In this document: piece by piece, positions 9,485 to 35,488 of the stretch | How positions within the stretch are numbered: position 1 is the stretch's first letter | Layout of the letters: each line of letters begins with the position of its first letter | Assembly (NCBI RefSeq): GCF_014203605.1 | Contig: NZ_JACHJJ010000009.1 | Coordinates: 186,001 to 250,000 of the forward strand | Length of the DNA stretch: 64,000 nucleotides | Source: Thiemannella venezuelensis | Lineage (GTDB): Bacteria > Actinomycetota > Actinomycetes > Streptosporangiales > Streptosporangiaceae | Direction of reading: 5' to 3' | Notes under the pieces: model-generated | What the model was told of the DNA's origin: nothing | Database searches by the model: none | The model's input: the letters and a program-made list of their open reading frames with translations, nothing else | Translations under genes and position numbers: made by a program

Positions 9485-10639
9485 GTGAGAGCAAAAGATT
9501 TAGCGACGATCCCTTTCAATCGTCCTTATTCTTCACAAAACGAGATGGGATATCTCGCTGAGGCGCTGAGCCAGGGGTTCACCTCGGGGGACGGTCCGTT
9601 CACGCGCAGGGCGAGCGGAATCCTGCGGGAGATGCTCGGCGCGGGCACGGCCCTGCTGACGACCTCCTGCACCCACGCCCTCGAGATGACGGCCATTCTG
9701 CTCGACCTCCAGCCGGGGGACGAAGTGATCATGCCGTCGTTCACCTTCGTCTCCACGGCGAACGCCTTCGCCCTGCGGGGTGCGGTGCCGGTGTTCGCCG
9801 ACTGCAGGCCCGACACCCTGAACGTGGACGAGAGACTGATCGAAGCCGAGATCACGCCGCGGACCAAGGCGATCGTGGTCGTCCACTACGCCGGCGTCTC
9901 CTGCCGGATGGACGCGATCACGGAGATAGCCGGTCGGCACGGCGTCGCGGTCGTCGAGGACAACGCCCACGGCCTGGGCGGATCGTACCGGGGCAGACCG
10001 CTCGGGTCGTTCGGGCGGATGGCCACCCAGAGTTTCCACGCGACGAAGAACGTGCAGTGCGGCGAGGGCGGCGCGCTGGTCCTGAACGATCCCGACCTCG
10101 CCGCGCGAGCGGAGATCATCCGGGAGAAGGGCACCAACCGCAGCCAGTTCTTCCGGGGGCAGACGGACAAGTACCGATGGCTCGACATCGGGTCGAGCTA
10201 TCTGCCGTCGGACATACTGGCCGCCCAGCTGACCGCCCAGCTGGAGGAGTTCGACACCATCCAGCTCCGGCGCCACGCGGTGTGGAACGCGTACCACAAA
10301 GGGCTGGCGGACTGGGCGGCTTCGAACGAGGTCTCCCAGCCGGTGGTCCCGGACGACTGCGCGCACCCCGCGCACCTGTACTACCTGCTCCTTCCCGACC
10401 TGCGGAACCAGCAGGCCCTGATCGCCCACCTGGCGGAGCACGGCGTCCAGGCGACGTTCCACTACCAGCCGCTGCACACGGCCCCGGCCGGGCTCCGGTA
10501 CGGGCGTCCGGCGGCGGCAGGCTGCCCGACCACGGAGAAGGTCGCCGACCGCCTGGTGCGCCTGCCGCTGTTCGCCGGGCTGAGCGAGACCGACACGGCA
10601 CGTGTGATCGAGGCGGTCCTGTCATACGAGGTGATCTGA
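9485..10639 (+). CDS. DegT/DnrJ/EryC1 sugar aminotransferase, WecE-like
   Basis: A 384-residue PLP-dependent aminotransferase. The N terminus IPFNRPYSSQNEMGYL is typical of WecE (dTDP-4-keto-6-deoxyglucose transaminase) relatives. PLP contacts are visible: VVEDNAH (Asp159, pairs with the pyridine nitrogen) and SFHATKNVQCGEGGAL with the internal-aldimine Lys188. It would convert dTDP-4-keto-6-deoxyhexose, made by RmlA and RmlB encoded downstream, into dTDP-4-amino-4,6-dideoxyhexose; galacto or gluco configuration cannot be told. The start is a GTG without a recognisable Shine-Dalgarno, preceded by an A/T-richer stretch, so translation could be leaderless. The N-formyltransferase follows after 83 bases. 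Confidence 0.9.
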   Translation: MRAKDLATIPFNRPYSSQNEMGYLAEALSQGFTSGDGPFTRRASGILREMLGAGTALLTTSCTHALEMTAILLDLQPGDEVIMPSFTFVSTANAFALRGAVPVFADCRPDTLNVDERLIEAEITPRTKAIVVVHYAGVSCRMDAITEIAGRHGVAVVEDNAHGLGGSYRGRPLGSFGRMATQSFHATKNVQCGEGGALVLNDPDLAARAEIIREKGTNRSQFFRGQTDKYRWLDIGSSYLPSDILAAQLTAQLEEFDTIQLRRHAVWNAYHKGLADWAASNEVSQPVVPDDCAHPAHLYYLLLPDLRNQQALIAHLAEHGVQATFHYQPLHTAPAGLRYGRPAAAGCPTTEKVADRLVRLPLFAGLSETDTARVIEAVLSYEVI

Positions 10640-10722
10640 GACCCGGACCCGGCGGAGACCCGAAGGGCCGGAACCGGGCGGCCCTGCCCGCGGGGCCCGC
10701 CAGAAGTCAAGAAGGAGTTAGC

Positions 10723-11487
10723 ATGCGCGTCGTCCTCTTCTGCAACGACCGGAGCGGTCTGGAGATCGCCGCCTGGCTCCGCGGCCGGCCCGACGCCGAC
10801 ATCGCCGCGGTCGTGCTCAACGCCCCCACCCGCCGGCCCCGCCGGGCGGATGAGATCAGGAGCCTGTTCCCCGACCTGGACAGGCGGGGCCTGGTGTTCA
10901 CCGGCGACACCCTCAGGAGTGAGGAGACGCTGGAACGACTTGAGGGAATCGGCGCCGAACTGGGGATATCCCTGTTCTTCGCGCACATCTTCACCGCCGA
11001 CCTGATGAAGGCCTTCCCCCGGGGGATCGTCAACCTCCACCCGTCGCTGCTGCCGTACAACAGAGGACGACAGCCGGCCGTCTGGTCCATCATCGACGGC
11101 ACGCCCGCGGGTGTGACCTTCCACATGATCGACGAGGGGATCGACACCGGCGCGGTCCTCGCGCAGCAGGAGGTGGCGGTCCGCCCGCACGACACCGGCA
11201 GCTCGCTCTACCGGAGGCTGGAGGACGCCGCCGTCGAGCTTTTCCAGCGCTCGTGGCCGGCGTTGTGCGAGAACACGCTCGTGCCGGTGGAACAGGACCA
11301 CGACAGGGCGACCGGCCACGCGATCACCGAGTTCGAGGAGCTCGCCCACCTGGATCCGGATCGGACGATGACGGTGGGACAGATGATCGACATCATCCGC
11401 GCCCGCTGTTTCAACCGGGACGACTGCGTACGGCTCCGCACACCCGGTGGAACCGTGCGCCTCTTCCTCGAACTGATCCCGGAGTGA
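10723..11487 (+). CDS. Sugar N-formyltransferase (formyl-THF dependent)
   Basis: A 254-residue protein with the methionyl-tRNA formyltransferase catalytic fold but shorter than Fmt and lacking its tRNA-binding C-terminal domain. The catalytic Asn-His pair lies in IVNLHPSLLPYNRG and the catalytic Asp in MIDEGIDTGAVL. Family relatives formylate the 4-amino group of dTDP-4-amino-4,6-dideoxy sugars (Qui4NFo or Fuc4NFo) with N10-formyltetrahydrofolate. The neighbouring WecE-like aminotransferase makes exactly such a substrate. A strong GAAGGAG sits nine bases before the ATG, so the start is secure. An inverted repeat ends the unit. Confidence 0.88.
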   Translation: MRVVLFCNDRSGLEIAAWLRGRPDADIAAVVLNAPTRRPRRADEIRSLFPDLDRRGLVFTGDTLRSEETLERLEGIGAELGISLFFAHIFTADLMKAFPRGIVNLHPSLLPYNRGRQPAVWSIIDGTPAGVTFHMIDEGIDTGAVLAQQEVAVRPHDTGSSLYRRLEDAAVELFQRSWPALCENTLVPVEQDHDRATGHAITEFEELAHLDPDRTMTVGQMIDIIRARCFNRDDCVRLRTPGGTVRLFLELIPE

Positions 11488-11505
11488 TCGACGGGACCGG
11501 ACGGC

Positions 11506-11554
11506 GGAACTCCCGGCAGGCGGGTCCTCGCGGACGCGGCCTGCCGGGAGTTCC
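11506..11554. terminator. Bidirectional terminator
   Basis: A 15-bp perfect stem (GGAACTCCCGGCAGG at 11506-11520 with its complement at 11540-11554) and a 19-nt loop lie between the convergent formyltransferase and glycosyltransferase stops. It can serve both strands. Confidence 0.85.
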
Positions 11555-11559
11555 GTCGT

Positions 11560-12525
11560 TCAGCGGGATCCGTTCGGCCGGACCGGGACGTCTCTGGCGG
11601 CCGACAGGCCCACCCGCTCCCGGACGACGTAGGTCGGCCGTCCCAGCCCTCCTCCGTGGATGCGGCCGATGTACTCGCCGAGCACCCCGATGGATATCAG
11701 CTGGGCGGACGAGAAGATCGCGACCATCGAGGTGATCGTGGTGAACCCGGCGACCGTGGTGTCGCCCGAGGCGAAGCGCCACAGGACCACGCCGCCCAGG
11801 AAGAGCCCGATGATCCCGGTGAGGAAGCCCAGGTAGCTCGCCACCCGCAGGGGGGCCGTGCTGTATCCCAGGAGCAGGTTCGCCGCGTGCCGTACCAGCA
11901 TGCGCAGGTTGTAGTTGGACTCCCCGAACTCGCGGTCGTTCATGTGCACCCCGACCGAGCCGATCTGGGTGGTGCCCCAGGAGAGGGCGACGTCGACGGA
12001 GGCGTGGGGTCCGGACAGGCTCTCGAACCCGTCGCGCAGGCAGGTGCGGAAGGCGCGGAAGGCGCCGATCTTCTGTGCGTTGCGGATGCCCAGCGCACGG
12101 GACATCCCCGTTTTCACCGATCGTGACGCGAGACTGCGCAGGAACCCGTGTTCCTCGCTGTGCGGCACGCCGTAGACGAGATCCAGCCGGTCGCCCTCAA
12201 GGGCGGCCAGCAGCAGCGGGATCTGCTCGGGAGGGTGCTGCAGGTCGTCGTCCATCGTGACGACCACGTCGAACCGCGCCTCCCTGATGCCGGCGACCAG
12301 CGCGTTGTGCTGGCCGTAGTTGCGGGACAGGCGGATGGCGCGGACGGCGTCGAACTGGCGGGCGAGGGACTCGGCCACGTCCCAGGTGCGGTCCGGGCTC
12401 CCGTCGACGACGAGGATCACCTCATGCCGGACGGCCAGGTCGCACAGCACCGAGACGAGCCTGGAGACCAGCGGTGGAAGAGTTATCTCCGAGCGGTAAC
12501 ACGGGATGACCACCGAAACGGACAC
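11560..12525 (-). CDS. Polyprenyl-phosphate glycosyltransferase, GtrB/DPM1-like (GT2)
   Basis: A 321-residue membrane-anchored GT2 enzyme. The N-terminal GT-A domain has SVVIPCYRSE, the nucleotide-binding VVDGSPD and the acidic metal site MDDDLQHPPE (Asp92-94). Two C-terminal hydrophobic hairpins (about 225-250 and 262-285) match GtrB/ArnC. Such enzymes load a sugar from a nucleotide onto polyprenyl phosphate at the inner face; the lipid-linked sugar is then used outside by GT-C enzymes. The GTG start has GGGAG six bases upstream. It is divergent from gtrA-like, its usual partner, with 98 bases between them. Confidence 0.9.
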   Translation of the reverse strand: MSVSVVIPCYRSEITLPPLVSRLVSVLCDLAVRHEVILVVDGSPDRTWDVAESLARQFDAVRAIRLSRNYGQHNALVAGIREARFDVVVTMDDDLQHPPEQIPLLLAALEGDRLDLVYGVPHSEEHGFLRSLASRSVKTGMSRALGIRNAQKIGAFRAFRTCLRDGFESLSGPHASVDVALSWGTTQIGSVGVHMNDREFGESNYNLRMLVRHAANLLLGYSTAPLRVASYLGFLTGIIGLFLGGVVLWRFASGDTTVAGFTTITSMVAIFSSAQLISIGVLGEYIGRIHGGGLGRPTYVVRERVGLSAARDVPVRPNGSR

Positions 12526-12623
12526 ATTATTCTCCCGACTATCGACTGTGAATCTTCATGTGGTCCTGTACGATCCTTCAGAATTCCTGGCGGCAATTAT
12601 CGAGAATTCGGAGGTGCCAGCGG

Positions 12624-13160
12624 ATGACTGAGCTGGATGTACGGGTCGCCCCCCACGTCGGATCGGATATCCGGGCTCGTTCCTCGACGTCGGCCCTTCG
12701 TGGACAGCGCACCACATATTTGCTGGGGGGAGGCATGACGGTCGTCGCCTATTTCAGTCTTCTTGCCCTCGCTTTGCTGCTTCTTGAACGGGTGGTTCCC
12801 TACCTTTTCCTGGTGGCGGGAAGCCATCTCCTCGCCGTCATGCTCGTCTACCCGTGGTACCGGCTGGTGGTGTTCCGCGTCTCGACCGGTTCGTGGATCA
12901 CCGGGTTCGCCCGGTTCTATCTGGTCGGACTGAGCTTTCTCGCCACCTCTGCGGTCGTTCTCCCGGTCCTGGTGGAGATCGTGGGGCTCCCCGTCCTGGC
13001 GGCGCAGGTGTTCGTGGTCCCGGCGAGCACCGTCCTCGCTTACCTGGTCAACCGGTCCTGGGCCTTCCGTGAAAAAACCGGAAGCAAAGCATCGGTAATG
13101 CCCGGGGTGCCGGAACGCAAAGCGGAGAGTGGTCCGGGCCTGTTCTCTCCCAGAATCTGA
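12624..13160 (+). CDS. GtrA family membrane protein
   Basis: A 178-residue protein with four hydrophobic segments in the GtrA/PMT2-associated fold: TYLLGGGMTVVAYFSLLALA, a second after VPYLF, a third after WITGFARFYLVG, and the last ending in LVNRSWAFRE. GtrA proteins are proposed flippases for polyprenyl-phosphate sugars or partners of GtrB. The terminal N-R-x-W-x-F motif is characteristic. GGAGG lies nine bases before the ATG at 12624, which rules out an earlier GTG/ATG. Together with the divergent GT2 gene it forms the membrane-translocation half of the sugar route. Confidence 0.87.
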   Translation: MTELDVRVAPHVGSDIRARSSTSALRGQRTTYLLGGGMTVVAYFSLLALALLLLERVVPYLFLVAGSHLLAVMLVYPWYRLVVFRVSTGSWITGFARFYLVGLSFLATSAVVLPVLVEIVGLPVLAAQVFVVPASTVLAYLVNRSWAFREKTGSKASVMPGVPERKAESGPGLFSPRI

Positions 13161-13212
13161 GAACAGCGGCCACCGCGGTCGGCTGCAGACGGAGAACAGG
13201 GAGTCCACAAGG

Positions 13213-14280
13213 GTGAAAGCGCTTGTTCTGGCGGGCGGCAGGGGAACGAGGCTGCGGCCGCTGACGCACACTTCCGCCAAGCAGCTGGTTCCGGTGGCGA
13301 ACAAGCCGGTGCTCTACTACGGGCTCGAGGCGATACGCGATGCGGGCATCACCTGCGTCGGAATCATCACCGGCGACACGGGCGCCGAGGTACGGGAGGC
13401 CGTCGGGGACGGCTCGAAGTTCGGACTCGACGTCACCTACATCCCCCAGGAAGCCCCTCTCGGCCTGGCGCACTGCGTCCTGATCGCGCAGGAGTTCCTC
13501 GCAGGCGATCCGTTCGTCATGTATCTCGGCGACAACTTCCTCCTCGGCGGGATATCCGACCTCGTCGACGCGTTCTGCCACGGCGGATACGACGCCCAGG
13601 TCCTCCTCACGAGGGTCACCGAGCCCCAGTTCTACGGAGTCGCCGAACTGGGACCCACCGGTGAGATCATCGGGCTGCAGGAGAAGCCGGTCCATCCGCG
13701 CAGTGACATGGCCATCGTGGGGGTGTACTCGTTCTCGCCGGCCATCCACGAGGCGGTCCGGGCGATCGCGCCGTCCGCGCGCGGCGAGCTGGAGATCACC
13801 GACGCCATCCAGTGGCTCATCGGGAACGGCTACTCGGTCCACTCCCACATGGTGAGCGGCTACTGGAAGGACACCGGCCGGCTGCAGGATCTGCTGGAGT
13901 GCAACCGCATGATCCTGGAAACGATCGCACCGGACAACAGGGGCACGGTCGACGGGCTGAGCGAGATCACCGGACGGGTCGTCATCGAGCCGGGGGCCGT
14001 GGTGGAGAACTCGGTGCTCCGCGGTCCGATCGTGGTGGGAGCCGACGCGAAGATCCAGTCCTCGTACGTCGGGCCCTTCACCTCGATCGGGCCGCGCTGT
14101 GTCGTGCAGGACGCCGAGGTCGAGTACTCGATCGTGCTCGACGACTCCTCCGTGCACGGGGTCTCCCGGCTGGCCCACTCCCTCATCGGACGCAACGTCG
14201 AGGTGAGCCGCGCGGAGGGCGCCCCGAACACGTACGGCCTCATGGTCGGCGACCACAGCAGGATCCAGGTGCGCGCATGA
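13213..14280 (+). CDS. rmlA: Glucose-1-phosphate thymidylyltransferase (long type)
   Basis: A 355-residue nucleotidyltransferase that makes dTDP-glucose from glucose-1-phosphate and dTTP. The signature LAGGRGTRLRPLT is at residues 6-18, the YLGDNF metal site near 105, and EKP near 155. A C-terminal left-handed beta-helix-like stretch (IEPGAVVENSVLRGPIVVGA) makes it longer than RmlA proper (about 290), as in the StrD-like form of antibiotic clusters. The GTG start gives the canonical MKALVLAGG. The stop overlaps the rmlB start (ATGA), so the two are translationally coupled. Confidence 0.92.
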   Translation: MKALVLAGGRGTRLRPLTHTSAKQLVPVANKPVLYYGLEAIRDAGITCVGIITGDTGAEVREAVGDGSKFGLDVTYIPQEAPLGLAHCVLIAQEFLAGDPFVMYLGDNFLLGGISDLVDAFCHGGYDAQVLLTRVTEPQFYGVAELGPTGEIIGLQEKPVHPRSDMAIVGVYSFSPAIHEAVRAIAPSARGELEITDAIQWLIGNGYSVHSHMVSGYWKDTGRLQDLLECNRMILETIAPDNRGTVDGLSEITGRVVIEPGAVVENSVLRGPIVVGADAKIQSSYVGPFTSIGPRCVVQDAEVEYSIVLDDSSVHGVSRLAHSLIGRNVEVSRAEGAPNTYGLMVGDHSRIQVRA

Positions 14281-15254
14281 GAGTCCTGGTCACAGGAGGC
14301 GCCGGATTCATCGGCTCCCACTACGTGAGGTCGCTGCTGCGGGGTGCGTACCCGGGGTTCGAGGACGCCCGCGTCACGGTCCTCGACAAACTGACCTACG
14401 CCGGCAATCTCGCCAACCTCGCCGCCGTGGCCGAGCACCGCGACTACCGCTTCGTCCGCGGGGACATCGCCGACGCGCGCCTGCTCGCGGACATCGTCCC
14501 CGGCCACGACGTCGTCGTGAACTTCGCGGCGGAGTCGCACGTCGACCGGTCCATCACCGGGGCCGGCGACTTCGCGACGACCAATGTGCTGGGCACGCAG
14601 CGGCTGCTCCAGGCGGCGCTGGACGGCGGGGTCGGCACGTTCGTCCAGGTCTCCACCGACGAGGTGTACGGGTCGATCGCCGAGGGCTCGTGGGACGAGT
14701 CGCAGCCCCTGCTGCCCAACTCGCCCTACTCGGCGGCCAAGGCCTCCGCCGACCTTTTCTGCCGCGCGTACGCCAGGACACACGGCCTCGACGTCCGCAT
14801 CACCCGCTGCTCCAACAACTACGGCCCCCACCAGTACCCGGAGAAGGTCATCCCGCTCTTCGTCACCAACCTGGCCGACGGCCGCCGGGTCCCTCTCTAC
14901 GGGGACGGCCGCAACGTCCGGGAGTGGCTGCACGTCGACGACCACTGCCGGGGAATCCAGCTCGTGCTGGAGAAGGGGTCCCCGGGTGAGATCTACAACA
15001 TCGGCGGCGGTGTCGAGCTCACCAACCTGGAGCTGACCGAGCGGCTGCTGGCCGCCTTCGGCGCGGGCTGGGACATGGTCGTGCGCGTTCCCGACCGGCT
15101 CGGGCACGATCTGCGCTACTCGGTGGACAGCGGCAAGGCCCGGGCGATCGGGTACGAGCCCCGGGTCGACTTCGCCGAAGGACTGGCCGAGACCGTGGCG
15201 TGGTACCGCGGCAACGAGAACTGGTGGCGCCCCCTGAAAGGGGCCACTCGTTGA
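14277..15254 (+). CDS. rmlB: dTDP-glucose 4,6-dehydratase
   Basis: A 325-residue short-chain dehydrogenase of the RmlB family. It oxidises and dehydrates dTDP-glucose to dTDP-4-keto-6-deoxyglucose, the direct precursor for the aminotransferase at 9485. It has the NAD-binding GGAGFIGS near the N terminus, the STDEVYG active-site segment with Thr-Asp-Glu, and YSAAK with the catalytic Tyr and Lys. RCSNNYGPHQYPEKVIPLF and the WLHVDDH motif follow. It begins inside the rmlA stop and its own stop overlaps the TTG of the next gene. RmlC and RmlD are absent from the window, so the product is not rhamnose from this locus alone. Confidence 0.95.
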   Translation: MRVLVTGGAGFIGSHYVRSLLRGAYPGFEDARVTVLDKLTYAGNLANLAAVAEHRDYRFVRGDIADARLLADIVPGHDVVVNFAAESHVDRSITGAGDFATTNVLGTQRLLQAALDGGVGTFVQVSTDEVYGSIAEGSWDESQPLLPNSPYSAAKASADLFCRAYARTHGLDVRITRCSNNYGPHQYPEKVIPLFVTNLADGRRVPLYGDGRNVREWLHVDDHCRGIQLVLEKGSPGEIYNIGGGVELTNLELTERLLAAFGAGWDMVVRVPDRLGHDLRYSVDSGKARAIGYEPRVDFAEGLAETVAWYRGNENWWRPLKGATR

Positions 15255-16774
15255 CCGTCCTGGTGCCGGGCCGGCGGCGGGTCAGCCCCGGGCTCCTGCT
15301 GTCGATCGTCGCCCTGTGCTACGCCGCCGTCCAGTTCTCCCTGGTCACCACGGCATTCGGCATCGAGTGGGACGAGGCGGTGTACATCAGCCAGTTCTCC
15401 GGGAAAGGAGCGCCCATCGCGTTCCACGCCTCCCGCGGCTGGGGGACACCGCTCGTGGTCGCTCCCGTGGTCGTGTTCACGGACTCGATAGCGGTTCTGC
15501 GCGCTTATCTGATGGTTCTGTCCTCACTGCTGCTGTTCGGCGCGTTCCGCATCTGGCTCCCGATCCGGCCGGGGTACACCGTCCCCATGGCCGCCGCCCT
15601 TTTCGCCGCCTGCTGGCCGACGGTGTTCTACGGCAGCGAGGCCATGCCGAACATCTTCACCGCACTCGGCGCCGTCGCGCTCACCGGCCTGGTCCTGAGA
15701 GCGGTCATCCCGGGCGTCCCTTCCGGCCGGGCGGCCCTCGCGGTGACGGCGGGCCTGGTGGTCCTCGTCTCGTTGTTCCGCCCGACCGACACGACGGTCA
15801 TCGTCCTGATCCTGGCAGGGGTGACGGCCTGCACCCTGCTCTCCCCGGGGCACCGGCGCCGCGCCGTCGGTGTGATCGCCGCGCTCGGCGCCGGCCTGCT
15901 GGCGGCCTGGGGTCTGTGGACCGCGGACGCGGTGCGCAGGTACGGCGGCGTCGCCGAGCGCATGGAACTGGCGACCGAGTACTTCGGCCCCTACCGGTGG
16001 CTCGCCGAGCACTACCTGCGCGCACTGGACGGACCGGTGGTCTGCTCGACACCGGATACCTGCGGCCCGGTCAGCGCCGGTGGCGTCGCATGGGCGACGG
16101 CTCTCCTGCTGCTCTCGGCGATCGGTTCGGTGACGCTCTGGAAACGGGGGCACCGGCTCGTGTCCGCCGCGCCCGCCGCCGTCGCCCTGGGGATCGCCGG
16201 CGCCTACCTGTACCACCCCCTCCTCCCGCATCCGCGCTACCTGCTGCCCGCCTACGGGCTCCTGTCGATCGCCGCGGCGGACGGCGTCCTCGTCGTGGGA
16301 GCCGCCCTGCGACAGCGGACCCGGGCCGCGTACGCGGTGGCGTTCTGCGGTCTTCTCGCCGTGGGGCACCTGGGCTCACAGGCCGTCTACCTGCTCGACA
16401 ACGTCGGGCGGCTCACGCCGGGACGCGCTCAGGACGTCGTGGTGGCGGCGAAGGTGAAGAAGATCGGCTACCGCCGCCCCTGCCTGGTGTACGGCTGGCA
16501 CGCTCCCCAGATCGGTCACCACCTGGGCTGCGAGGCCGCCGGCGCGTCCGGGGGCAAGGCGCTGCCCGCCACTCCGAGACATGTGCCGCTCAAGGCGGCG
16601 AACGGATACTCCGTCATCGTGGTCTACCGCGGTGACGCCGACAGGGCCGCGTCAGACCTGGCCGCATGGCCGAGGCACCGGCTGACCTCCAACGACTGGT
16701 ACGCCCGGATCAGCGACGGAGCGGCCGGCCCTGCCGCCCCTCCGGGTCCGGTGGGATACGAACCCGGCCTCTGA
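15251..16774 (+). CDS. GT-C family membrane glycosyltransferase, paralog A
   Basis: A 507-residue polytopic membrane protein with about ten to twelve hydrophobic segments. The first extracytoplasmic loop carries the acidic GT-C motif GIEWDEAVYISQFS, comparable with the Asp/Glu site of ArnT and PMT enzymes that take sugar from polyprenyl phosphate. A short C-terminal soluble domain contains RRPCLVYGWHAPQIGHHLGC. The TTG at 15251 overlaps the rmlB stop (TTGA) with GAAAGGGG upstream, so it belongs to the rmlAB transcript. The donor is probably the lipid-linked deoxysugar made by the locus; the acceptor is not known. Confidence 0.78.
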   Translation: MTVLVPGRRRVSPGLLLSIVALCYAAVQFSLVTTAFGIEWDEAVYISQFSGKGAPIAFHASRGWGTPLVVAPVVVFTDSIAVLRAYLMVLSSLLLFGAFRIWLPIRPGYTVPMAAALFAACWPTVFYGSEAMPNIFTALGAVALTGLVLRAVIPGVPSGRAALAVTAGLVVLVSLFRPTDTTVIVLILAGVTACTLLSPGHRRRAVGVIAALGAGLLAAWGLWTADAVRRYGGVAERMELATEYFGPYRWLAEHYLRALDGPVVCSTPDTCGPVSAGGVAWATALLLLSAIGSVTLWKRGHRLVSAAPAAVALGIAGAYLYHPLLPHPRYLLPAYGLLSIAAADGVLVVGAALRQRTRAAYAVAFCGLLAVGHLGSQAVYLLDNVGRLTPGRAQDVVVAAKVKKIGYRRPCLVYGWHAPQIGHHLGCEAAGASGGKALPATPRHVPLKAANGYSVIVVYRGDADRAASDLAAWPRHRLTSNDWYARISDGAAGPAAPPGPVGYEPGL

Positions 16775-16876
16775 AGACACCGCGGTCACCGTCGCCCGGC
16801 CCGGCGGGCGGACCTGCGGCGCGTGCCGAAAGCCGTTCCGGGCATCGCATCCATTTCTCAGAGAGGCTTCCAGCCG

Positions 16877-26010: not shown

Positions 26011-26043
26011 CAGAGCGTCATTGCCGACGACTCCGTCGTGGCC

Positions 26044-27050: not shown

Positions 27051-27160
27051 GCGGCGCGTGCCCGCCCGCCCCGATCCGGCCCGTTCCGCACGGCGCGCGG
27101 CGCACGCGCCCACCCGATCCGTACTTCTGCCCGACCGATTCTCCACGGGGGTTCGTTGTG

Positions 27161-28207: not shown

Positions 28208-28249
28208 CATCCCCGGAGCGGTCTCGGAGTACCAGCCCGGGTGGGTCAA

Positions 28250-28278
28250 GAACTGGCATGGAGACCTTCCGTTAGTTA
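28250..28278 (+). promoter_or_regulatory. Candidate promoter of phosphatidyltransferase cassette 2
   Basis: GAACTG (28250-28255), 17 bases, TAGTTA (28273-28278) repeat the arrangement seen before cassette 1. Conservation of spacing and boxes amid changed neighbours argues for function. The RNA would start shortly before the ATG at 28312. Confidence 0.5.
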
Positions 28279-28311
28279 CAGAAAGTCAATGTCGATGAAC
28301 TCGGTGTCGCC

Positions 28312-29196
28312 ATGCTGACCTGCATGAGGGCCTACTCGTTGGACGACGTTCACGCGGCGCGCAAGCAGCGGGACTCGTGGTGGACCGTTTTCCTGGTCGA
28401 CCCGGTGGCGTGCCGGCTCACGGTGTTCGTCGCCAACCACACGGCCGTCACGCCCAACGGCCTCACCTGCCTCTCGCTGGCGCTCGGCCTGGGGGCGGCG
28501 GTCTGGTTCGCGGCGGGGCAGCTCGCGGCGGGGGCCGCGCTGTTCTACCTGAGCTTCATGGTCGACTGCATGGACGGCAAGATCGCCCGGCTCAAGGGGA
28601 CCGGGACCGCGTTCGGCCTCTGGGTCGACTTCGTGGGCGACCGGATCCGGGAGATCTGCTGCGCGGCCGGGCTGGCGTTCGGGCAGTACGCGGCGACCGG
28701 TGAGGTCGCCTACATCCTGCTCGGCGCAGGAGTGACCGTGCTGGACCTGTTCCGCTACGTGAACGCCCCGCAGATGAAGCGGGTGCGCGAGGTGGTCAGG
28801 GAGAACCGGGCCCCGCGCGACGGGCGGAACGCCGCCGCACCGGACGGGGCGCCGGCGCAGGCGCCGCCGGACGACTCCATCGAGGTGCCGGCCGGGGACC
28901 CCTCCGTCCAGCCGCCCTGGGGCGTCCGCCGGGTGCTGCGGAGATACCGCCGGCTCGGCCGGGTCCTCGGCCGCCACCGGGTCCGGCCCCACCTGATGAG
29001 CGGCATCGAGTTCCACGCCGCGGTGTTCGTGGTCGCGCCGCTGCTCGGCGCCGGGGCGCTGCTGCCCGTCTCGATCGCGGCGGGCGCGCTGCTCCTGCTG
29101 AACGAGGCCTTCCTGATCTACCTGCTCTGGCTGTTCACCCGGACGGCGGCGCCCGCCGCGCCGGTCCCGGCCGGCGCCCGGCACCTGCCCGCCTGA
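28312..29196 (+). CDS. CDP-alcohol phosphatidyltransferase family protein, cassette 2
   Basis: A 294-residue paralog of the protein at 26044 with the same intact signature (DCMDGKIAR, then GLWVDFVGD). The same C-terminal pair of helices follows SGIEFHAAVFVVAPLLGAGA. The cytoplasmic insert is shorter and unrelated in sequence. An 88-base stretch over the active site (28522-28609) is identical to 26254-26341, which indicates recent exchange between the copies. The ATG at 28312 aligns with 26044; 28324 is the alternative. It is followed after 71 bases by a second sulfotransferase, so the whole two-gene unit was duplicated with its promoter. Confidence 0.85.
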   Translation: MLTCMRAYSLDDVHAARKQRDSWWTVFLVDPVACRLTVFVANHTAVTPNGLTCLSLALGLGAAVWFAAGQLAAGAALFYLSFMVDCMDGKIARLKGTGTAFGLWVDFVGDRIREICCAAGLAFGQYAATGEVAYILLGAGVTVLDLFRYVNAPQMKRVREVVRENRAPRDGRNAAAPDGAPAQAPPDDSIEVPAGDPSVQPPWGVRRVLRRYRRLGRVLGRHRVRPHLMSGIEFHAAVFVVAPLLGAGALLPVSIAAGALLLLNEAFLIYLLWLFTRTAAPAAPVPAGARHLPA

Positions 29197-29267
29197 CCGG
29201 CGCCCGGCCGAGCGGCCCGCCCGACCGGCACACCTGTCCGACCGACTCTCCACGGGGGTTCGTTGTA

Positions 29268-30278
29268 ATGCAGTCCGACCGGCCGATCTTCGTCATCGGC
29301 TGCCCGCGCTCCGGCACCACCATGCTGCAGCTGATGCTGCACTCGCACCCGCGGATCGCGGTGGCCCCGGAGACCCGCTTCCTGGTCCCCGGCTACTACC
29401 GCAGGTTCGGTTTCGGGGACCTGCGCGAGGAGGCCAACCGGCGCCGGCTGGGCCAGTGGATCGCGAGCGACAAGGACACCAAGTTCAAGGAGCTCAAGCT
29501 CGACGGCGACCGGTTCGTCGAGGAGGTCGTGGCCGGGCCGCCCACGCTCGGCTCGGCGATCGGCATCGCCTTCAGGTCCTACGCCGAGCGGTACGGCAAG
29601 GCCCGATGGGGTGACAAGCGGCCGAGCTACTACCACTACGTGGACCTGATCCTGCGCCTGTTCCCCGACGCCCAGTTCGTGCACCTGATCAGGGACGGCC
29701 GGGACTGCGTGGCCTCGCTCAAGGAGATGCCCTGGTACGGCAAGGACGTCTTCCACGCGGTGAACAACTGGGCCGAGGCCATCGACTTCGGCCGCCGCCA
29801 CGCCCGCAGGCTCCCGGCCGACAGCTACTACGAGCTGCGTTACGAGGACCTCACCGCCTCCCCGGAGACCGAGCTCACTACGTTGTGCGCGTTCCTCGGC
29901 GAGGAGTACGACCCGGCGATGAGCGAGCCGTGCCACGCGGCGCGGGAGGCGATCCCGCAGCACAAGATCTGGCACAGCAACACCCACGGCGAGGTGACGA
30001 CCGCCCGCTCCGGCTCGTGGAAGGCGCGGCTGAAGCCGTGGGAGGTCTCCCTCTGCGAGACCGTGCTGGCCGAGCGGCTGACCGCCAACGGCTACGAGCT
30101 GACCGGCGCGCCCGCGGCGGAGAAGGGCCAGGTGGCGGAGGTGTCCAGGGTCGCGGCCAAGCGGCGGGCGGCCCGCCGGCGCAAGGACCTCAGGGACCGG
30201 ATCAACCGGCTGCGCGAGCCCGGCCCGGTGGCGGCGCAGCTCACCACCCGGCAGCTGGGCGAGCTGGTGAAGGCCTGA
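29268..30278 (+). CDS. PAPS-dependent sulfotransferase, cassette 2
   Basis: A 336-residue sulfotransferase with CPRSGTT at residues 12-18 and FVHLIRDGRDCVASLKEMPW. It is the most diverged of the three: the acceptor-side region (about 30-100) reads HPRIAVAPETRFLVPGYYRR and then a distinct stretch, and the C terminus is shorter. The first 20 codons and the upstream leader are nearly identical to the gene at 27161. A different acceptor position is plausible. The third sulfotransferase starts two bases after its stop, so both are made from one transcript. Confidence 0.9.
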   Translation: MQSDRPIFVIGCPRSGTTMLQLMLHSHPRIAVAPETRFLVPGYYRRFGFGDLREEANRRRLGQWIASDKDTKFKELKLDGDRFVEEVVAGPPTLGSAIGIAFRSYAERYGKARWGDKRPSYYHYVDLILRLFPDAQFVHLIRDGRDCVASLKEMPWYGKDVFHAVNNWAEAIDFGRRHARRLPADSYYELRYEDLTASPETELTTLCAFLGEEYDPAMSEPCHAAREAIPQHKIWHSNTHGEVTTARSGSWKARLKPWEVSLCETVLAERLTANGYELTGAPAAEKGQVAEVSRVAAKRRAARRRKDLRDRINRLREPGPVAAQLTTRQLGELVKA

Positions 30279-30280
30279 CC

Positions 30281-31327
30281 ATGCAGTCCGACCGGCCGAT
30301 CTTCATCGTGGGCTGCCCCCGCTCGGGGACGACGATGCTCCAGCTCATGACGCACGCCCATCCCCGCATCGCCATCCCGCCGGAGACCCGGTTCATGATG
30401 GCGGCCTACCAGCGGCGGCTGCGCTTCGGCGACCTGGCCGACCCGATCTGCCGGCGCGAGCTCGCCGAGTGGGTCGTCGGCCGGCGGCAGCACCGCTTCC
30501 ACGACCTGGGACTGGACGCCGCCGAGGTGGCCAGGGAGATCGCCACCGGCCCGCCGACGCTCGGTTCGGCCCTGGGCGCCGTGCTGCGCGCCTACGCGGC
30601 CCGGTTCGGCAAGCCGCGCTGGGGCGACAAGCGGCCGGGCTACTTCCAGAGCGTGGACGCCCTGCTCCGGCTCTTCCCCGACGCCCAGTTCGTGCACCTC
30701 ATCAGGGACGGCCGCGACTGCGTGGCCTCGCTCAAGGAGATGCCCTGGCACCGGGGAGGCATCCACAGCGCCGTCTCCGTCTGGGCCGAGGCGATCGACT
30801 TCGCCCGGTACGGCGCGCCCAGGCTCCCCGAGGGCAGCTACCACCAGCTCCGTTACGAGGACCTGACCCGCGACCCCGAGGCCGAGCTGCGCGGGCTGTG
30901 CGCGTTCCTCGGCGAGGAGTACGACCCGGCGATGAGCGAGCCGGACCGGATGGCGCGCATCGCCGTACCCGCCCGCAAGACCTGGCACGAGCGCACCCAC
31001 GGCAAGGTGACGACCGCCCGGTCCGGCTCGTGGAAGGAGCGGCTCACCCCGCAGGAGGTCTCGCTGTGCGAGACCGTGCTCGCCGACCGCCTGGAGGAGT
31101 GCGGCTACGAGCTCAGCGGGGCTCCGAAGGCCGAGCGGTCGCACGTCCTCGCCTACGAGCACACCGCGGCCAAGCGGAGGCTGGCCCGGGCCAAGCGCAT
31201 CGCCTTCGACCGGCTGGTACGGCTCCGCGAGCCGAACCCGCTGGCCGCCAGGCTCACCACCGAGGAGCGCAGGCTGGCCGGGATCCCGGTCCCCCGCCGC
31301 GAGCCGTGGGTCCCCGTCAGCGGGTGA
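30281..31327 (+). CDS. PAPS-dependent sulfotransferase, third copy
   Basis: A 348-residue sulfotransferase, closest to the first copy (27161). They share the same length, the C-terminal tail with KAERSHVLAYEHTAA and LTTEERRLAGIPV, and a 72-base identical stretch (30365-30436 equals 27245-27316). PAPS sites are intact (CPRSGTT and HLIRDGRDCVAS). It has no phosphatidyltransferase of its own and sits directly behind the second copy, with GGTGAAGG overlapping that gene's end as ribosome site. Its 3' end overlaps the convergent GT4 gene by 11 bases. Confidence 0.9.
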   Translation: MQSDRPIFIVGCPRSGTTMLQLMTHAHPRIAIPPETRFMMAAYQRRLRFGDLADPICRRELAEWVVGRRQHRFHDLGLDAAEVAREIATGPPTLGSALGAVLRAYAARFGKPRWGDKRPGYFQSVDALLRLFPDAQFVHLIRDGRDCVASLKEMPWHRGGIHSAVSVWAEAIDFARYGAPRLPEGSYHQLRYEDLTRDPEAELRGLCAFLGEEYDPAMSEPDRMARIAVPARKTWHERTHGKVTTARSGSWKERLTPQEVSLCETVLADRLEECGYELSGAPKAERSHVLAYEHTAAKRRLARAKRIAFDRLVRLREPNPLAARLTTEERRLAGIPVPRREPWVPVSG

Positions 31328-32468
31328 CGTGCTCGAAGAGCTCCTCCCAGCGGTCCAGGACCCGATCCAGCCGGAACTGCCCGACGTGCGCGCGGGCGGC
31401 GGCGCCCAGCCGCCGCCGCTCGTCCGCCGAGCCCGCCAGCCGGACCAGCGCCGCCGCGAACGCGTCCACGTCGGCCGGCGGGACCAGCAGCCCGGTCTCC
31501 GCGTCGAGGACCAGCGAGCGCACCCCGCCCGACACGTCGAACGCCACCGACGGCACGCCGTACGAGGCGGCCTCCCCGACCACCAGCGGGAGCCCCTCGT
31601 GCTCGCTGGACAGGCCCAGCACCGCCCCGCCGAGATATTCGAGCCCCATGTCCGCCGCGGGCACCGCCCCCCGGAACACCACCCGGTCGGCCACCCCGCA
31701 CGCCAGCGCGTGCGCGTGCAGCCGCTCCCGCTCGGCGCCCTCGCCGATCAGATGCAGCTCCCAGCCGTCCATCGCGGCCCGGCCGTCCACCGCGCCCGGG
31801 CCGCCGGCCGCGGCCCGCCGCTCCGGGGAGCCCGCCGCACCCCGGCAGGCCAGGGCGAAGGCCGAGATCAGCCGGTCGAAGCGTTTGACGCCCTCCAGCC
31901 TGCCCACCCCGAGCACCCGGCGGCCGGTCAGCCCGGAGGCCCGAGACGGCCAGGCGGGCAGCGGGTTCGGCAGGGACCAGGTGTTGGGCAGCAGCGCGTG
32001 CTCGGAGAACAGCCACGCGTCGTCCTCGCTGACGAACACCGCCTTCTCCAGCCCGCCGTAGTGCCCGCGGACCGACCTCAGATGCCAGGAGCCCCGGGCG
32101 TGCTGGTAGGAGCCGTGGTACTGGCCGATCGGGAGCAGGTGCCCCGGGAGCAGGCTCTTGAGCCGGGTCACCACGCCCGGCGAGGTCATCACCGCGAAGC
32201 CCGGGGCCAGCCGGCCGAACAACCCGGCGAGCCGCCGGTGCTCGCGCCGCACGGCCGCCCGGGAGACCTTCCCCACGAGCGTGCCGTGGATCACGTGGTG
32301 GTGGTAGGCGGGCCGCTCCACGTAGCGGAACGGGCGCTCCGCCCGGTGCAGCCCGACCACGTGCACCTCGTGCCCCCGCCCGGCCAGGCCCTGGGCCACG
32401 GTGTGCGTGACCCGCTGGATCCCGCCCAGGGTGTCGGCGTCCATACAGGCGAACAGGACCGTGTTCAT
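31317..32468 (-). CDS. Family 4 glycosyltransferase (GT-B fold)
   Basis: A 383-residue retaining glycosyltransferase of the GT4 type. The N terminus carries the acceptor-side DTLGGIQRVTHTVAQGLAGRGHEVHVVG. The C-terminal Rossmann domain has VLGVGRLEGVKRFDRLI, WELHLIGEGAERERL, VVFRGAV, and the EX7E donor motif in SSEHEGLPLVVGEAASYG. The sugar is unknown. The ATG at 32468 lies in the first unit of a 90-bp tandem repeat that duplicates its ribosome site (GAGGAG, 12 bases away). An in-frame GTG at 32489 is possible. It reads in the same direction as the TagF-like fusion upstream. Confidence 0.88.
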   Translation of the reverse strand: MNTVLFACMDADTLGGIQRVTHTVAQGLAGRGHEVHVVGLHRAERPFRYVERPAYHHHVIHGTLVGKVSRAAVRREHRRLAGLFGRLAPGFAVMTSPGVVTRLKSLLPGHLLPIGQYHGSYQHARGSWHLRSVRGHYGGLEKAVFVSEDDAWLFSEHALLPNTWSLPNPLPAWPSRASGLTGRRVLGVGRLEGVKRFDRLISAFALACRGAAGSPERRAAAGGPGAVDGRAAMDGWELHLIGEGAERERLHAHALACGVADRVVFRGAVPAADMGLEYLGGAVLGLSSEHEGLPLVVGEAASYGVPSVAFDVSGGVRSLVLDAETGLLVPPADVDAFAAALVRLAGSADERRRLGAAARAHVGQFRLDRVLDRWEELFEHVTR

Positions 32469-32689
32469 GGGTCGCTCACCACTCCTCACTCACTTCGCGG
32501 AAGGCCTCGTCCCTCGGCCTGCCGCTGTGTTCGCTGCGTCGGGTTCGCTCCGGTTCATGGGTCGCTCACCACTCCTCACTCACTTCGCGGAAGGCCTCGT
32601 CCCTCGGCCTGCCGCTGTGTTCGCTGCGTCGGGTTCGCTCCGGTTCATGGGTCGCTCACCACTCCTCACTCACTTCGCGGAAGGCCTCG
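32464..32689 (-). repeat. 90-bp tandem repeat carrying duplicated translation starts (2.5 copies)
   Basis: Units begin at 32464, 32554 and 32644; the third is cut after 46 bases. Units one and two are identical. On the minus strand each unit contains GTGAGTGAGGAGTGGTGAGC, then ACCCATG. The unit nearest the GT4 gene provides its real start. The other two ATGs open 22-codon frames (32490-32558 and 32580-32648) that end at TGA just before the next unit's ribosome site. The period is a multiple of three. No coding similarity to known leader peptides was recognised. Confidence 0.92.
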
Positions 32690-32698
32690 CCCTCCGGC

Positions 32699-35488
32699 TC
32701 ACCGCAACCAGCCCGGTACGGCCAGCCGGGCCGCGCGTGCGACCGCGGGCAGGTCGTGCCGCTCCGGGACCCGCGCCCGCGCCGGTCCGAAGAAGGCGTC
32801 CACCACCCGGGCGCTCGCGTGCCCCTGCTCGTCGGCGCACCACATCTCCCGGAACGCCGCGTACGTGGCGGCGAACGACGAGGCCAGGCCGTCGAGGTCG
32901 CGCAGCGCGTAGATCAGCTCCTCGGTGGTGGTCAGGCAGGGGCCCGGGGCGATCGCGGGCAGGTCGTGGTAGACGCCCCGCTCCACGCGGCGGTACTCGT
33001 CCCAGTCGTCGATCAGGAAGAGCATCGGCTTGCCGGTGACCGCGTAGTCGCACATCACCGACGAGTAGTCGGTCAGCAGCGCGTCCGAGACGAGCATCAG
33101 GTCGTTGATCTCCGGATACGACCCGGCCGGGCGGACGAAGTGGCGCAGGTGCTGGGGCACCCGGTAGCGCTCGACCGGGTGCGGGCGCAGCACGACCACC
33201 CACTCCCCGGCGAGGGCCCCCGCCATCAGCTCCAGGTCGGCGCGGACGGACCGGCCGGAGGACTTGGCCTGGTCCCGGTAGGTCGGCGCGTAGAGCAGCA
33301 CCCTGCGGTCCGGCGGGATCTCCAGGCGGTCCCTCGCCCGCGCGACGGCGGCCGGGTCGCCGTGGACGAGCACGTCGCACCGGGGCGAGCCGTACCGGAG
33401 CACCGGGCCGGCGTACTCGTTCGACGGGACGAAGATCCGCTCGAACTCGGCGCTCGGCGCGACCAGCGCGTCCCAGCGCGCCACCGCCGCCCGCCACTGC
33501 GCCCGCGGGCCGGAGAAGTCGGCGCGCAGGTCGGGCGAGTTGAAGCCGATCGACTTGATGCCCTGACCGTGCCAGGTCTGCAGGTAGCGGGTTCCGCGCG
33601 GCTTGGGGTAGTCCAGCGGCAGCCCGTGGCTGTCCACCCAGTAGCCCGCCCGGGCCATCGTCCAGATGTACCGCCAGCTCATCCGGCGCACGAGCGGGGC
33701 GTCGGCGGGGAAGTTCCGGCGCCTCCTCGCGACCGACCAGACCATGCGGAGCGGGGCGCCGCGCCGCTTCAGCTCCTCGTAGATGTAGCGGGGGCTGCCG
33801 GTGTACCCGGCGCCGACGTCGGACTCGAACAGGGCGAGGTCCCGGCGGGGCGGCACGACCTTGATCAATCCCTTGTAGACGCGGAGCTTCAGCTCGGCGG
33901 TGCTCAGCTTCCTGACGAGCTTCGTCCGGGTCCGCGCCAGCCGGGACGCCCTGCGGAGCAGGCCCTCCCGCCGCCAGCACACCCGCAGGACCGCGGCCGT
34001 GCCCTCGGCCCGCACCGTGACGGTGTGCCAGGGGACGGCCGCGGTGACCGGCGCGGCGGCCGGGTCCACCAGGACCAGGTCGGAGGTGGCCCGGCCGTCG
34101 GGGCGGACGATCACGATCTTCGGGTCGTAGCGGCCGTCGAAGCCGAGGCGGCCGTGCCTGAGCCCGGCGAGGTCGACCACGGCCTCGCTGAGCAGGCTGC
34201 CGTCGGGCTGCTCGCGGGGCGCCAGCCGTACCCGGTGGGACCAGAGCTGCAGGAACGCGGTCCAGCCCGGGTGGGCGGCGAGGACCCCGAACGGGTCGTA
34301 GGTCCTGATCGACAGGGCGAGCCGCGTCCCGTCGCCGGTGAAGGCGGCCTCGTGCCGGAGCCTGGTCGCGGTGTAGGGCAGCTCGGCCAGGCGGAGCGAG
34401 GTGATCTCCATCCTCCGGTCCGGGACGGTGCCCCAGTAGGTCCGCCCGCCGTCCCGTACGGCGGAGCGCGGCGCGGCCCGCGGCCCGTTGAGGGAGCGGG
34501 CGGCGACGATCAGGTCGTCGATCCGGCCGTCGAGGATCAGCGTGCAGCAGACCCGGGCGACGGGGTCGATCCGCTCGAAGACGGCCGGGTCGATCCCGGC
34601 CAGGTACGGCCGGACGACGGAGGCGAACTCCGCGGCCCAGGCCCGGTCCCGGGAGGGCAGCGGGTTGAGGTAGACCCGCAGGTCCTGGCGGAGGAACCGG
34701 TGCTGGCGCTCGGGCACCAGGTGGCCGCAGCCGCGTTCCCGCAGGATCTCGTCGCTCAGGAGGGCCGCCCTGACGCGCTGCCGGGCGTTGCCCATCTCAC
34801 GGAAGCGGAGCGAGATCGACAGGTGGCCGTCGCCCGTGTCGCGGGCCCGGTGCCAGACGTAGACGGTCCACGGGACCACCGCGAACCGGCGGGCGGCGCA
34901 GTACAGCTCGGTGGTGAAGACGTGGTCCTCGAAGTGCATGTCCTCCCGGAACGGGATCCGGCGCAGCAGGCCGGTCCGGTAGAGCTTGTTGGTGGCGAAG
35001 GAGTCGAGGAACATCCGGGGATCGTCGGCGATCCCCTCGACCGTCCTGCGCCGGGCGAACAGCTCGGGGTAGTAGCGGTTGCTCTTGCGGCTCGTCTCGT
35101 AGAACCGGATGATCTGGCCGGTGACGAAGTCGGCGCCGGTCCGCTCGATCTCGCCGATCATGCTCTTGCACGCGTGCTTGGCGAGCCGGTCGTCGCTGTC
35201 GAGGAACATGGCGTACGGCGCGCGGGCGGCGGCGACCCCGGCGTTGCGCGGTGCCCCGCAGCCGCCGCTGTTGCTCTCCCTGCGCAGGTAGCGGACCCGG
35301 GGGTCGCCCTCCTGGAGCGCGCGGACCACCCGCTCGGTGCCGTCGCTGCTCGCGTCGTCCACGACGATCACTTCGAGGTTCCGCAGCGACTGGTCCAGCA
35401 CCGACCGCACGGCCCTGGCCACACGGGAGGCGTCGTTGTACGTAATGACGATCACGCTGCATTCGGGTGCATTGATCACGATCTGCAC
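32699..35488 (-). CDS. GT2 / CDP-polyol glycerophosphotransferase (TagF-like) fusion, second
   Basis: A 929-residue fusion of the same design as the protein at 22326 but diverged and on the opposite strand. The GT-A domain (about 10-300) has CSVIVITYNDASRVARAVRS, VVDDASSDGTE, FLDSDDR and FEDHVF. The middle region is beta-rich. The TagF-like domain (about 560-900) has LQTWHGQGIKSIGFN near 639, RPHPVERY near 768 and TDYSSVMCDYAVTGKP near 806. It is expected at the membrane inner face. GTG at 35488 is the start; the Shine-Dalgarno (CGGGAA) is poor and the upstream region is A/T-rich, as expected of a promoter. Two such fusions suggest a two-component or branched phosphopolymer. Confidence 0.86.
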   Translation of the reverse strand: MQIVINAPECSVIVITYNDASRVARAVRSVLDQSLRNLEVIVVDDASSDGTERVVRALQEGDPRVRYLRRESNSGGCGAPRNAGVAAARAPYAMFLDSDDRLAKHACKSMIGEIERTGADFVTGQIIRFYETSRKSNRYYPELFARRRTVEGIADDPRMFLDSFATNKLYRTGLLRRIPFREDMHFEDHVFTTELYCAARRFAVVPWTVYVWHRARDTGDGHLSISLRFREMGNARQRVRAALLSDEILRERGCGHLVPERQHRFLRQDLRVYLNPLPSRDRAWAAEFASVVRPYLAGIDPAVFERIDPVARVCCTLILDGRIDDLIVAARSLNGPRAAPRSAVRDGGRTYWGTVPDRRMEITSLRLAELPYTATRLRHEAAFTGDGTRLALSIRTYDPFGVLAAHPGWTAFLQLWSHRVRLAPREQPDGSLLSEAVVDLAGLRHGRLGFDGRYDPKIVIVRPDGRATSDLVLVDPAAAPVTAAVPWHTVTVRAEGTAAVLRVCWRREGLLRRASRLARTRTKLVRKLSTAELKLRVYKGLIKVVPPRRDLALFESDVGAGYTGSPRYIYEELKRRGAPLRMVWSVARRRRNFPADAPLVRRMSWRYIWTMARAGYWVDSHGLPLDYPKPRGTRYLQTWHGQGIKSIGFNSPDLRADFSGPRAQWRAAVARWDALVAPSAEFERIFVPSNEYAGPVLRYGSPRCDVLVHGDPAAVARARDRLEIPPDRRVLLYAPTYRDQAKSSGRSVRADLELMAGALAGEWVVVLRPHPVERYRVPQHLRHFVRPAGSYPEINDLMLVSDALLTDYSSVMCDYAVTGKPMLFLIDDWDEYRRVERGVYHDLPAIAPGPCLTTTEELIYALRDLDGLASSFAATYAAFREMWCADEQGHASARVVDAFFGPARARVPERHDLPAVARAARLAVPGWLR

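Follow-up and report, generated by a model that had tools for sequence, protein, structure and literature searches.

A conserved, putative sulfation core and an exchangeable sugar cassette lie between the genes guaA and coxG in the stretch analyzed here, a 64,000-nucleotide window (contig C9:186001-250000; 72.5% G+C) of the draft genome of Thiemannella venezuelensis (8.18 Mb in 85 contigs). The host is an actinomycete of the Streptosporangiaceae and belongs to the same genus as Planomonospora sp. ID67723. At the center of the locus, a gene for a cytidine diphosphate (CDP)-alcohol phosphotransferase is followed closely by a sulfotransferase gene, an arrangement that recurs in related genomes. 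The guaA-coxG interval may well be a cell-surface glycopolymer locus whose product is a TagF-type phosphodiester polymer that is sulfated before export, a reading that we hold and doubt in equal measure.

Genes were delimited by third-position G+C, and families were assigned by Pfam and NCBIfam profile scans of 40 open reading frames (ORFs) of the window, some of which are longer than the probable gene. The left boundary of the locus is the C-terminal part of guaA (74-1237, forward strand; GMP_synt_C), which likewise marks the left end of the interval in the upstream DNA of nine among 12 relatives. The right boundary is a CoxG-like gene (37433-38317, reverse strand; PF06240), and the genes in between lie mostly on one strand. 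The sequence-only reading had placed a possible sulfated, N-formylated, phosphodiester-linked polymer locus at 9485-35488. Its gene content stands, and its start moves leftward, because the genes at 1339-9369 lie in the same guaA-coxG interval.

The conserved core

The core consists of the CDP-alcohol phosphotransferase and sulfotransferase genes together with a glycosyltransferase family 4 (GT4) gene and a TagF fusion gene on the opposite strand. In the window, it is preceded by a forward-strand fusion of a glycosyltransferase family 2 (GT2) domain with a TagF domain (TagF1, 22326-25760; PF00535, and PF04464 at 317 bits with a cut-off of 22.1). The forward strand continues with CDP-alcohol phosphotransferase a (26038-27018; PF01066, 47 bits, cut-off 22), sulfotransferase 1 (ST1, 27158-28207), CDP-alcohol phosphotransferase b (28312-29196; PF01066, 50 bits, same cut-off), ST2 (29268-30278), and ST3 (~30281-31327, scanned from 29885). 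The three sulfotransferases match PF13469 (Sulfotransfer_3) at 146-154 bits (cut-off 27), ST1 having the score of 154. The reverse strand carries the GT4 gene (31317-32489; PF00534, 91 bits) and a second GT2-TagF fusion (TagF2, 32699-35488; PF00535, and PF04464 at 278 bits, cut-off 22.1). The profile scans thus confirm the families named in the sequence-only reading: two GT2-TagF fusions, two CDP-alcohol enzymes, three sulfotransferases, a GT4, and the GtrB/GtrA pair described below.

Evidence for conservation comes from 20 named loci that were found with both CDP-alcohol enzymes as queries against genome contigs, where 63 stretches matched the pattern. These loci were selected by likeness to the CDP-alcohol enzyme of the window and therefore measure what accompanies that enzyme. 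All of them come from Streptosporangiaceae genera, and the best, from Planomonospora sp. ID67723, matched at 86%. In all 20, the start of a sulfotransferase gene lies less than 500 bases downstream of the CDP-alcohol gene. The reverse-strand GT4 and TagF2 genes are present at more than 50% identity in 13, CoxG in 14, and, within the DNA covered, a TagF domain of any kind in 19, the exception being a locus on a 9.6-kb contig (L021).

Further evidence comes from 120 genomes of the family as defined in GTDB. Sulfotransferase homologues were detected in 73 of these (E<=1e-40). A CDP-alcohol gene lay on the same strand, no more than 3.5 kb upstream, in at least 44 of the 73, counted from a list of CDP-alcohol genes that reached down to about E 3e-54. 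Inspection of 10 of the 29 unpaired genomes revealed the pair in three more (G012, G028, and G031), where GT4 and TagF2 also adjoin it. The pair is therefore present in at least 47 of the 73 genomes and in at least 24 genera, a count of the pair and not of GT4 or TagF2. The two samples overlap and are not independent, as both include Planomonospora sp. ID67723, Planobispora siamensis, P. takensis, P. longispora, P. rosea, and Streptosporangium minutum. A lack of conserved grouping, which the sequence-only reading had named as grounds for giving it up, was not what the core showed. The order of the genes is conserved for the core; the whole 26 kb does not behave as one unit. With TagF nearby in nearly all named loci, the pair points to specific genes and a specific polymer for study.

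The sulfotransferases score above the profile cut-off and keep a PRSGTT loop, an RDGRDxxAS motif, and an ETR triplet (30 sequences, few exceptions). The glutamate of this triplet may correspond to the catalytic base of tyrosylprotein sulfotransferase (TPST). Hydropathy revealed no membrane segment in the three window enzymes. An AlphaFold2 model of ST2 (pLDDT 86) matched the folds of TPST and of olefin-synthase sulfotransferases at Z ~21, among the matches listed. In a midpoint-rooted tree, all 22 sulfotransferases encoded beside a CDP-alcohol gene grouped together (support 96/92). Outside that group were six lone homologues and two sequences of other families, the latter on long branches that leave their place unsure. 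The group divides into an A branch with the ST2 type (15 sequences, 100/99) and a B branch with the ST1 and ST3 type (7 sequences, 98/96), and each branch includes this genome, Planobispora, and Streptosporangium. The retention of both types in three lineages suggests that two functions have been maintained, perhaps sulfation at two different positions.

Sulfotransfer_3 matches of nearly full length occur at seven places in the genome, including the three in the locus; a further match is split into two pieces, and one scores below the cut-off. The sulfate donor 3'-phosphoadenosine-5'-phosphosulfate (PAPS) would be supplied by the single adenosine-5'-phosphosulfate kinase of the genome (C5:85102-85563), with another sulfotransferase cluster ~6 kb away. 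This cluster (C5:66001-96000, L056-L057) holds CysD/CysN-like, inositol-phosphatase-like (CysQ-like), sulfotransferase, GT2, and Wzz-like genes, with the Cys labels assigned by context. Its part at C5:70-86 kb resembles the wps-1 cluster of Actinoplanes, discussed below, more than the window locus does.

Both TagF domains keep the active-site histidine pair (motifs QTWHG and LxRxH; QTWHG and LRPH in TagF2) when aligned to Staphylococcus epidermidis TagF (3l7i); in the same alignment, 3l7j has an asparagine at the first histidine position. The pair is presumably catalytic. The TagF domains of both fusions also match Cps3D (8qoy) in addition to 3l7i. By domain make-up and active-site histidines, both fusions are predicted to be TagF-like multidomain polymerases.

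Both CDP-alcohol phosphotransferases have an intact DxxDGxxAR(8)GxxxDxxxD motif. An AlphaFold2 model of copy b (pLDDT 82) agreed best with AF2299 among the matches listed (Z 20.1, 208 aligned residues, root-mean-square deviation 2.8), ahead of IPCT-DIPPS (Z 19.5), PIP synthases (Z 17-18), and choline phosphotransferases (Z ~13). In a midpoint-rooted tree, 18 sequences from the named loci and both window copies formed one group (100/100). The G012 enzyme fell outside it on a long branch, though a sulfotransferase adjoins it. In two genomes of another family (f18, perhaps Streptomyces), a gene for a homologous CDP-alcohol enzyme (identity to copy b 41 and 47%) is the immediate neighbor of one for a GT2-GT2-TagF protein, and the 20 kb inspected showed no sulfotransferase. 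A gene for an LCP ligase was recognized by Pfam ~4 kb away in one of these loci (L141), and the other (L140) has a similar-looking gene. This arrangement speaks for an involvement of the CDP-alcohol enzyme in the synthesis of TagF polymers that are not sulfated. In another genome (L135, 9240-11881), a CDP-alcohol gene outside any sulfotransferase pair is next to an IMP dehydrogenase-like gene, a label taken from the translation only. Genes of GMP synthesis adjoin in both settings, guaA elsewhere and the IMP dehydrogenase-like gene here.

A variable sugar cassette upstream of the core

A set of sugar genes sits upstream of the core. It begins with a WecE-type dTDP-4-keto-6-deoxyhexose transaminase (9485-10639, forward; NF008687 540 bits, cut-off 375; TIGR02379 500 bits, cut-off 434.9) and a sugar N-formyltransferase (~10717-11487, forward; PF00551 88 bits, cut-off 26.1). 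A GtrB/ArnC-type polyprenyl-phosphate sugar transferase of the GT2 family follows (11560-12525, reverse; PF00535, and NF007986 at 167 bits, under the cut-off of 529), and then a GtrA flippase with four hydrophobic segments (12558-13160, forward; PF04138 32.6 bits, cut-off 26.1). The set ends with the glucose-1-phosphate thymidylyltransferase RmlA (~13213-14280, forward; TIGR01208 432 bits, cut-off 320) and the dTDP-glucose 4,6-dehydratase RmlB (~14277-15254, forward; TIGR01181 407 bits, cut-off 365).

Comparison with 12 relatives' genomes showed that this position, between guaA and the core, is variable. Six relatives have the transaminase-GtrB-GtrA-RmlA-RmlB cassette at 78-92% identity (55-65% for GtrA); the P. 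rosea contig ends before the transaminase. The other six have different genes there: GT2 or GT2-TagF homologues in all, and distant transaminase- or RmlB-like matches (28-34%) in some. A search for the formyltransferase gave no match in any of the 12 stretches (E<=1e-8). The slot between transaminase and GtrB is visible in five cases. Four of them, in Planobispora siamensis, P. takensis, P. longispora, and G015, have an acetyltransferase-like gene. Two of these (L170 and L181) are GNAT acetyltransferases (PF00583, 30 and 34 bits, cut-off 20.7), and the other two were assigned by translation similarity. The fifth, in Planomonospora sp. ID67723, is empty, a gap of only ~260 bases. In other words, Planobispora relatives seem to acetylate where the host strain formylates. 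N-formylation looks like a strain-specific decoration, a local add-on, because the formyltransferase is missing from the stretches of all 12 relatives, the slot is otherwise acetyltransferase-like or empty, and the cassette is replaced in half of them. One joint product that includes the formyl sugar, as the sequence-only reading had it, is not supported by these results. That one slot can be occupied by a formylating or an acetylating enzyme or stay vacant, next to a core that does not change, amounts to a natural experiment on surface variation.

Which sugar does the cassette make? The transaminase is closest to dTDP-4-amino-4,6-dideoxygalactose transaminases (PDB 4piw and 6blg, E<1e-119), which suggests that the sugar is probably the galacto form. 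The formyltransferase keeps its NLHPSLLP and DTG motifs. Against the dTDP-4-amino-4,6-dideoxyglucose formyltransferase model NF005755 it scored 98.5 bits (cut-off 238), and its best PDB match was the formylation domain of gramicidin synthetase, ahead of sugar formyltransferases. Its presumed substrate therefore follows from its placement. Of the dTDP-4-formamido-4,6-dideoxyhexose route in the sequence-only reading, RmlA, RmlB, and the transaminase are well supported by their models, and the formyltransferase is supported at the level of PF00551 and not of NF005755.

The cassette resembles the Fuc4NAc route of enterobacterial common antigen, which consists of RmlA, RmlB, WecE, and WecD. It shares RmlA, RmlB, and a WecE-type transaminase with that route, and the Planobispora relatives share a GNAT-like gene in the acyl slot. 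It differs from that route in that the acyl step of the window is a formyltransferase and the transfer looks GtrB/GtrA-dependent.

A proposed assembly route and its rivals

How would the parts work together? In the favored reading, the GT2-TagF fusions, along with the GT4 and GT2 enzymes, would assemble a glycopolymer with phosphodiester links at the cytosolic face of the membrane, as their families suggest. The A-type enzyme (ST2) and the B-type enzymes (ST1 and ST3) would then use PAPS to sulfate the polymer before export, a step proposed because of the conserved adjacency, the lack of membrane segments, and the intact PAPS-site motifs. Alternatively, the target of sulfation may be the unit that the membrane CDP-alcohol phosphotransferase attaches, whose gene immediately precedes those of the sulfotransferases. 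RmlA, RmlB, the transaminase, and the formyltransferase would supply dTDP-4-formamido-4,6-dideoxyhexose. GtrB would load this sugar on polyprenyl phosphate, GtrA would flip it, and a multi-pass transferase would add it to the finished polymer outside; this last step would vary between strains. For export and attachment to peptidoglycan, the route would depend on genes elsewhere in the genome, where an LCP ligase is encoded on contig C3. According to the accessible parts of the sources, TagF-like polymerases join glycosyl transfer with the transfer of polyol phosphate or hexose phosphate at the cytoplasmic face (PMC5974469), and GtrA systems decorate outside (PMC13390465). Cytoplasmic polymerization of the TagF type is consistent with sulfotransferases that lack membrane segments and work ahead of export, with GtrA-dependent decoration outside.

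Several observations weigh against this reading. Some concern donor and export. A genome-wide search for TagD (glycerol-3-phosphate cytidylyltransferase) gave a best score of 43.2 bits, for a 574-residue frame on C23; the model cut-off is 165.4 bits, and the candidate was rejected for that reason. The phosphate donor may therefore not be CDP-glycerol. No TagGH-type exporter was found among the 40 scanned ORFs of the window, and of the 17 ABC2_membrane matches in the genome, the five places viewed by eye showed no obvious glycopolymer genes. Other points concern distribution. GT4 and TagF2 are missing in seven of the named loci (three from Planotetraspora, two from Sphaerimonospora, and two from Microbispora), and six of the 12 relatives keep the sulfotransferase core without the sugar cassette. 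Of the 73 sulfotransferase-bearing genomes of the family, 26 showed no CDP-alcohol partner, and the seven of these that were inspected, some with further sulfotransferase copies, had no CDP-alcohol homologue near the sulfotransferase. A class-wide sample of 246 genomes (sulfotransferase at E<=1e-60, CDP-alcohol enzyme at E<=1e-35) contained 11 sulfotransferase genomes outside the family; their short flanking DNA had no CDP-alcohol homologue, and none of them is among the seven outside-family genomes with the CDP-alcohol enzyme. No pair was thus observed in this sample beyond the family. Likewise, in eight of 10 other genomes (L135-L139 and L142-L144; tblastn with window proteins only) the CDP-alcohol gene has no recognizable TagF or sulfotransferase neighbor. 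Lastly, the enzymes with the nearest folds to ST2 act on tyrosines or a polyketide chain and not on glycans, and heparan-type enzymes score lower (Z ~13).

A possible source of the CDP-alcohol is a locus on contig C3 (C3:288000-307000, L059). It encodes a PfkB kinase, GT2 enzymes, two CDP-alcohol enzymes (one an NTP transferase fusion), an NTP transferase, an IspD-type enzyme, and an LCP-LytR_C ligase. The IspD-type cytidylyltransferase gene is at C3:301742, with the two CDP-alcohol genes and the ligase gene nearby.

The least unlikely rival assumes that two pathways share the locus. The CDP-alcohol enzyme and the sulfotransferases would make a sulfated phospholipid or lipid headgroup, and the TagF and Gtr genes an unsulfated surface polymer. 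It draws on the likeness of the CDP-alcohol enzyme to inositol-phosphate and phospholipid types, which are its best solved relatives (AF2299, IPCT-DIPPS, and PIP synthases), on a pair that is tighter than its link to GT4 and TagF2 (the seven loci above), and on the eight genomes in which the enzyme has neither neighbor. The near-constant presence of a TagF domain beside the pair in the named loci speaks against two separate pathways, as do the two f18 loci in which the CDP-alcohol gene stands beside GT2-GT2-TagF with no sulfotransferase in 20 kb, and we regard this rival as possible, if on balance unlikely. We think it improbable that the targets of the sulfotransferases are proteins (tyrosine sulfation) or a small molecule and that their genes are merely co-regulated with the adjacent polymer genes. 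Such targets would suit the TPST and olefin-synthase folds, which outscore the heparan enzymes, and also seven lone homologues (L128-L134; 54-63% identity) whose settings lack the window polymer genes, apart from ~30% RmlA/RmlB-like matches in three. These lone neighborhoods share no common partner by tblastn with window proteins only. The enzymes that belong to a pair group apart from the lone ones in the tree, however, and the pair is kept over at least 24 genera with TagF close by.

Two further rivals concern the unity of the locus. That the genes at 1339-35488 form one pathway to a fixed product with both sulfate and a 4-formamido sugar would suit the placement of all parts in one interval, mostly on one strand. 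The missing formyltransferase in the stretches of all 12 relatives, the acetyltransferase-like gene in four of five slots, and the replacement of the cassette beside a constant core make this very unlikely, and the slot content together with the formyltransferase count led us to reject a single invariable pathway across all 26 kb. The tandem duplications in the window could be taken as a sign that the grouping arose by chance or by recent assembly in one strain. For the core this is refuted by the pair in every named locus and in at least 47 of 73 family genomes, and we give the idea almost no credence.

The favored reading, a conserved sulfation core with a swappable cassette, can be carried further, to a wall polymer class found throughout the Streptosporangiaceae, a sulfated teichoic acid. 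The CDP-alcohol enzyme would place a phospho-alcohol unit in the chain or its lipid anchor, the A and B sulfotransferases would sulfate that unit, and the swappable cassette would vary the outer acylamido sugar in a serotype-like manner. This is a tentative and rather doubtful extension.

Related systems and neighboring genes

Streptomyces coelicolor encodes a TagF homologue, SCO2997, which the title of the study on it reportedly ties to wall teichoic acid and sporulation. The locus is like SCO2997 and the PDP/teichulosonic wall polymers in having an actinomycete TagF homologue, and unlike them in that no sulfate is described for those polymers in the accessible part of the source (PMC7831098). 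It also resembles two actinomycete polysaccharide clusters of Actinoplanes missouriensis, wps-1 with two sulfotransferases and gsf with a GtrA system, which the accessible part of the report describes as needed for normal sporangia (PMC13390465). For wps-1, a Wzx/Wzy pathway is predicted, and TagF, phosphatidyltransferase, and CDP are unmentioned in the paper (PMC13390465). In contrast, no Wzx, Wzy, or Wzz family was found among the 40 scanned ORFs of the window.

As in CslB, Cps3D, and Cps7D, a glycosyltransferase and a TagF domain are joined in one polypeptide (PMC5974469). Those are enzymes of Gram-negative group 2 capsules, and the accessible part of the paper names no sulfotransferase (PMC5974469). 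The window differs in having an actinomycete host, no TagD above the cut-off, and adjoining sulfotransferase genes. Compared with the classical wall teichoic acid pathway, a TagD above the cut-off is missing from the genome.

No report of a sulfated teichoic acid was found in the open-access literature searched, where only the term 'sulfated glycopolymer' occurs among the matches listed. The accessible part of one paper mentions sulfate with regard to algae (PMC6801904), and that of another, on a Streptomyces wall ligase, contains no sulfate-related word (PMC11481543). The conserved arrangement was likewise not found described in this literature. A polymer of the sulfated teichoic type is the likeliest reading of it, if an unproven one.

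The left part of the locus begins with a membrane acyltransferase 3 gene (1339-2619, forward; PF01757 83 bits), whose homologues adjoin guaA in relatives, and a polysaccharide deacetylase gene (2599-3525, reverse; PF01522 141 bits), which also has homologues in relatives. These are followed by an S-adenosylmethionine-dependent methyltransferase gene (3655-4428, forward; PF08241/PF13489) and two tandem copies of a gene for a multi-pass membrane protein (4591-6963 and 7042-9369, forward; ~16 and ~15 hydrophobic segments). The two copies have common 300-base blocks that are 87-98% identical and ends that are more diverged (70-75%), a pattern that suggests tandem duplication plus gene conversion. 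Two more membrane proteins are encoded between RmlB and TagF1 (15200-16774 and 16823-18472, forward; ~11 and ~7 segments), along with a GT2-like protein (18708-20657, forward; PF00535 38 bits) and a GT2 glycosyltransferase (20654-22321, forward; PF00535 64 bits, scanned from 20549). The sequence-only reading had invoked GT-C transferases. The multi-pass appearance of the four candidates holds by hydropathy, and the GT-C label itself is unproven, as none of the four matches a Pfam or NCBIfam model.

Elsewhere in the genome, a stretch of contig C23 (24000-38000, L062) has a frame that starts like a kinase and includes a nucleotidyltransferase domain; its neighbors are isomerase-like and glycosyltransferase-like genes, all labeled from translations. 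This is perhaps an ADP-heptose route in an actinomycete. Within the window, the region at 49389-53290 encodes a LuxR response regulator and two proteins with a PspC domain, of which one ends in a LiaF-like C-terminus and the other has a histidine-kinase ATPase domain. Together, the three make up a probable envelope-stress system.

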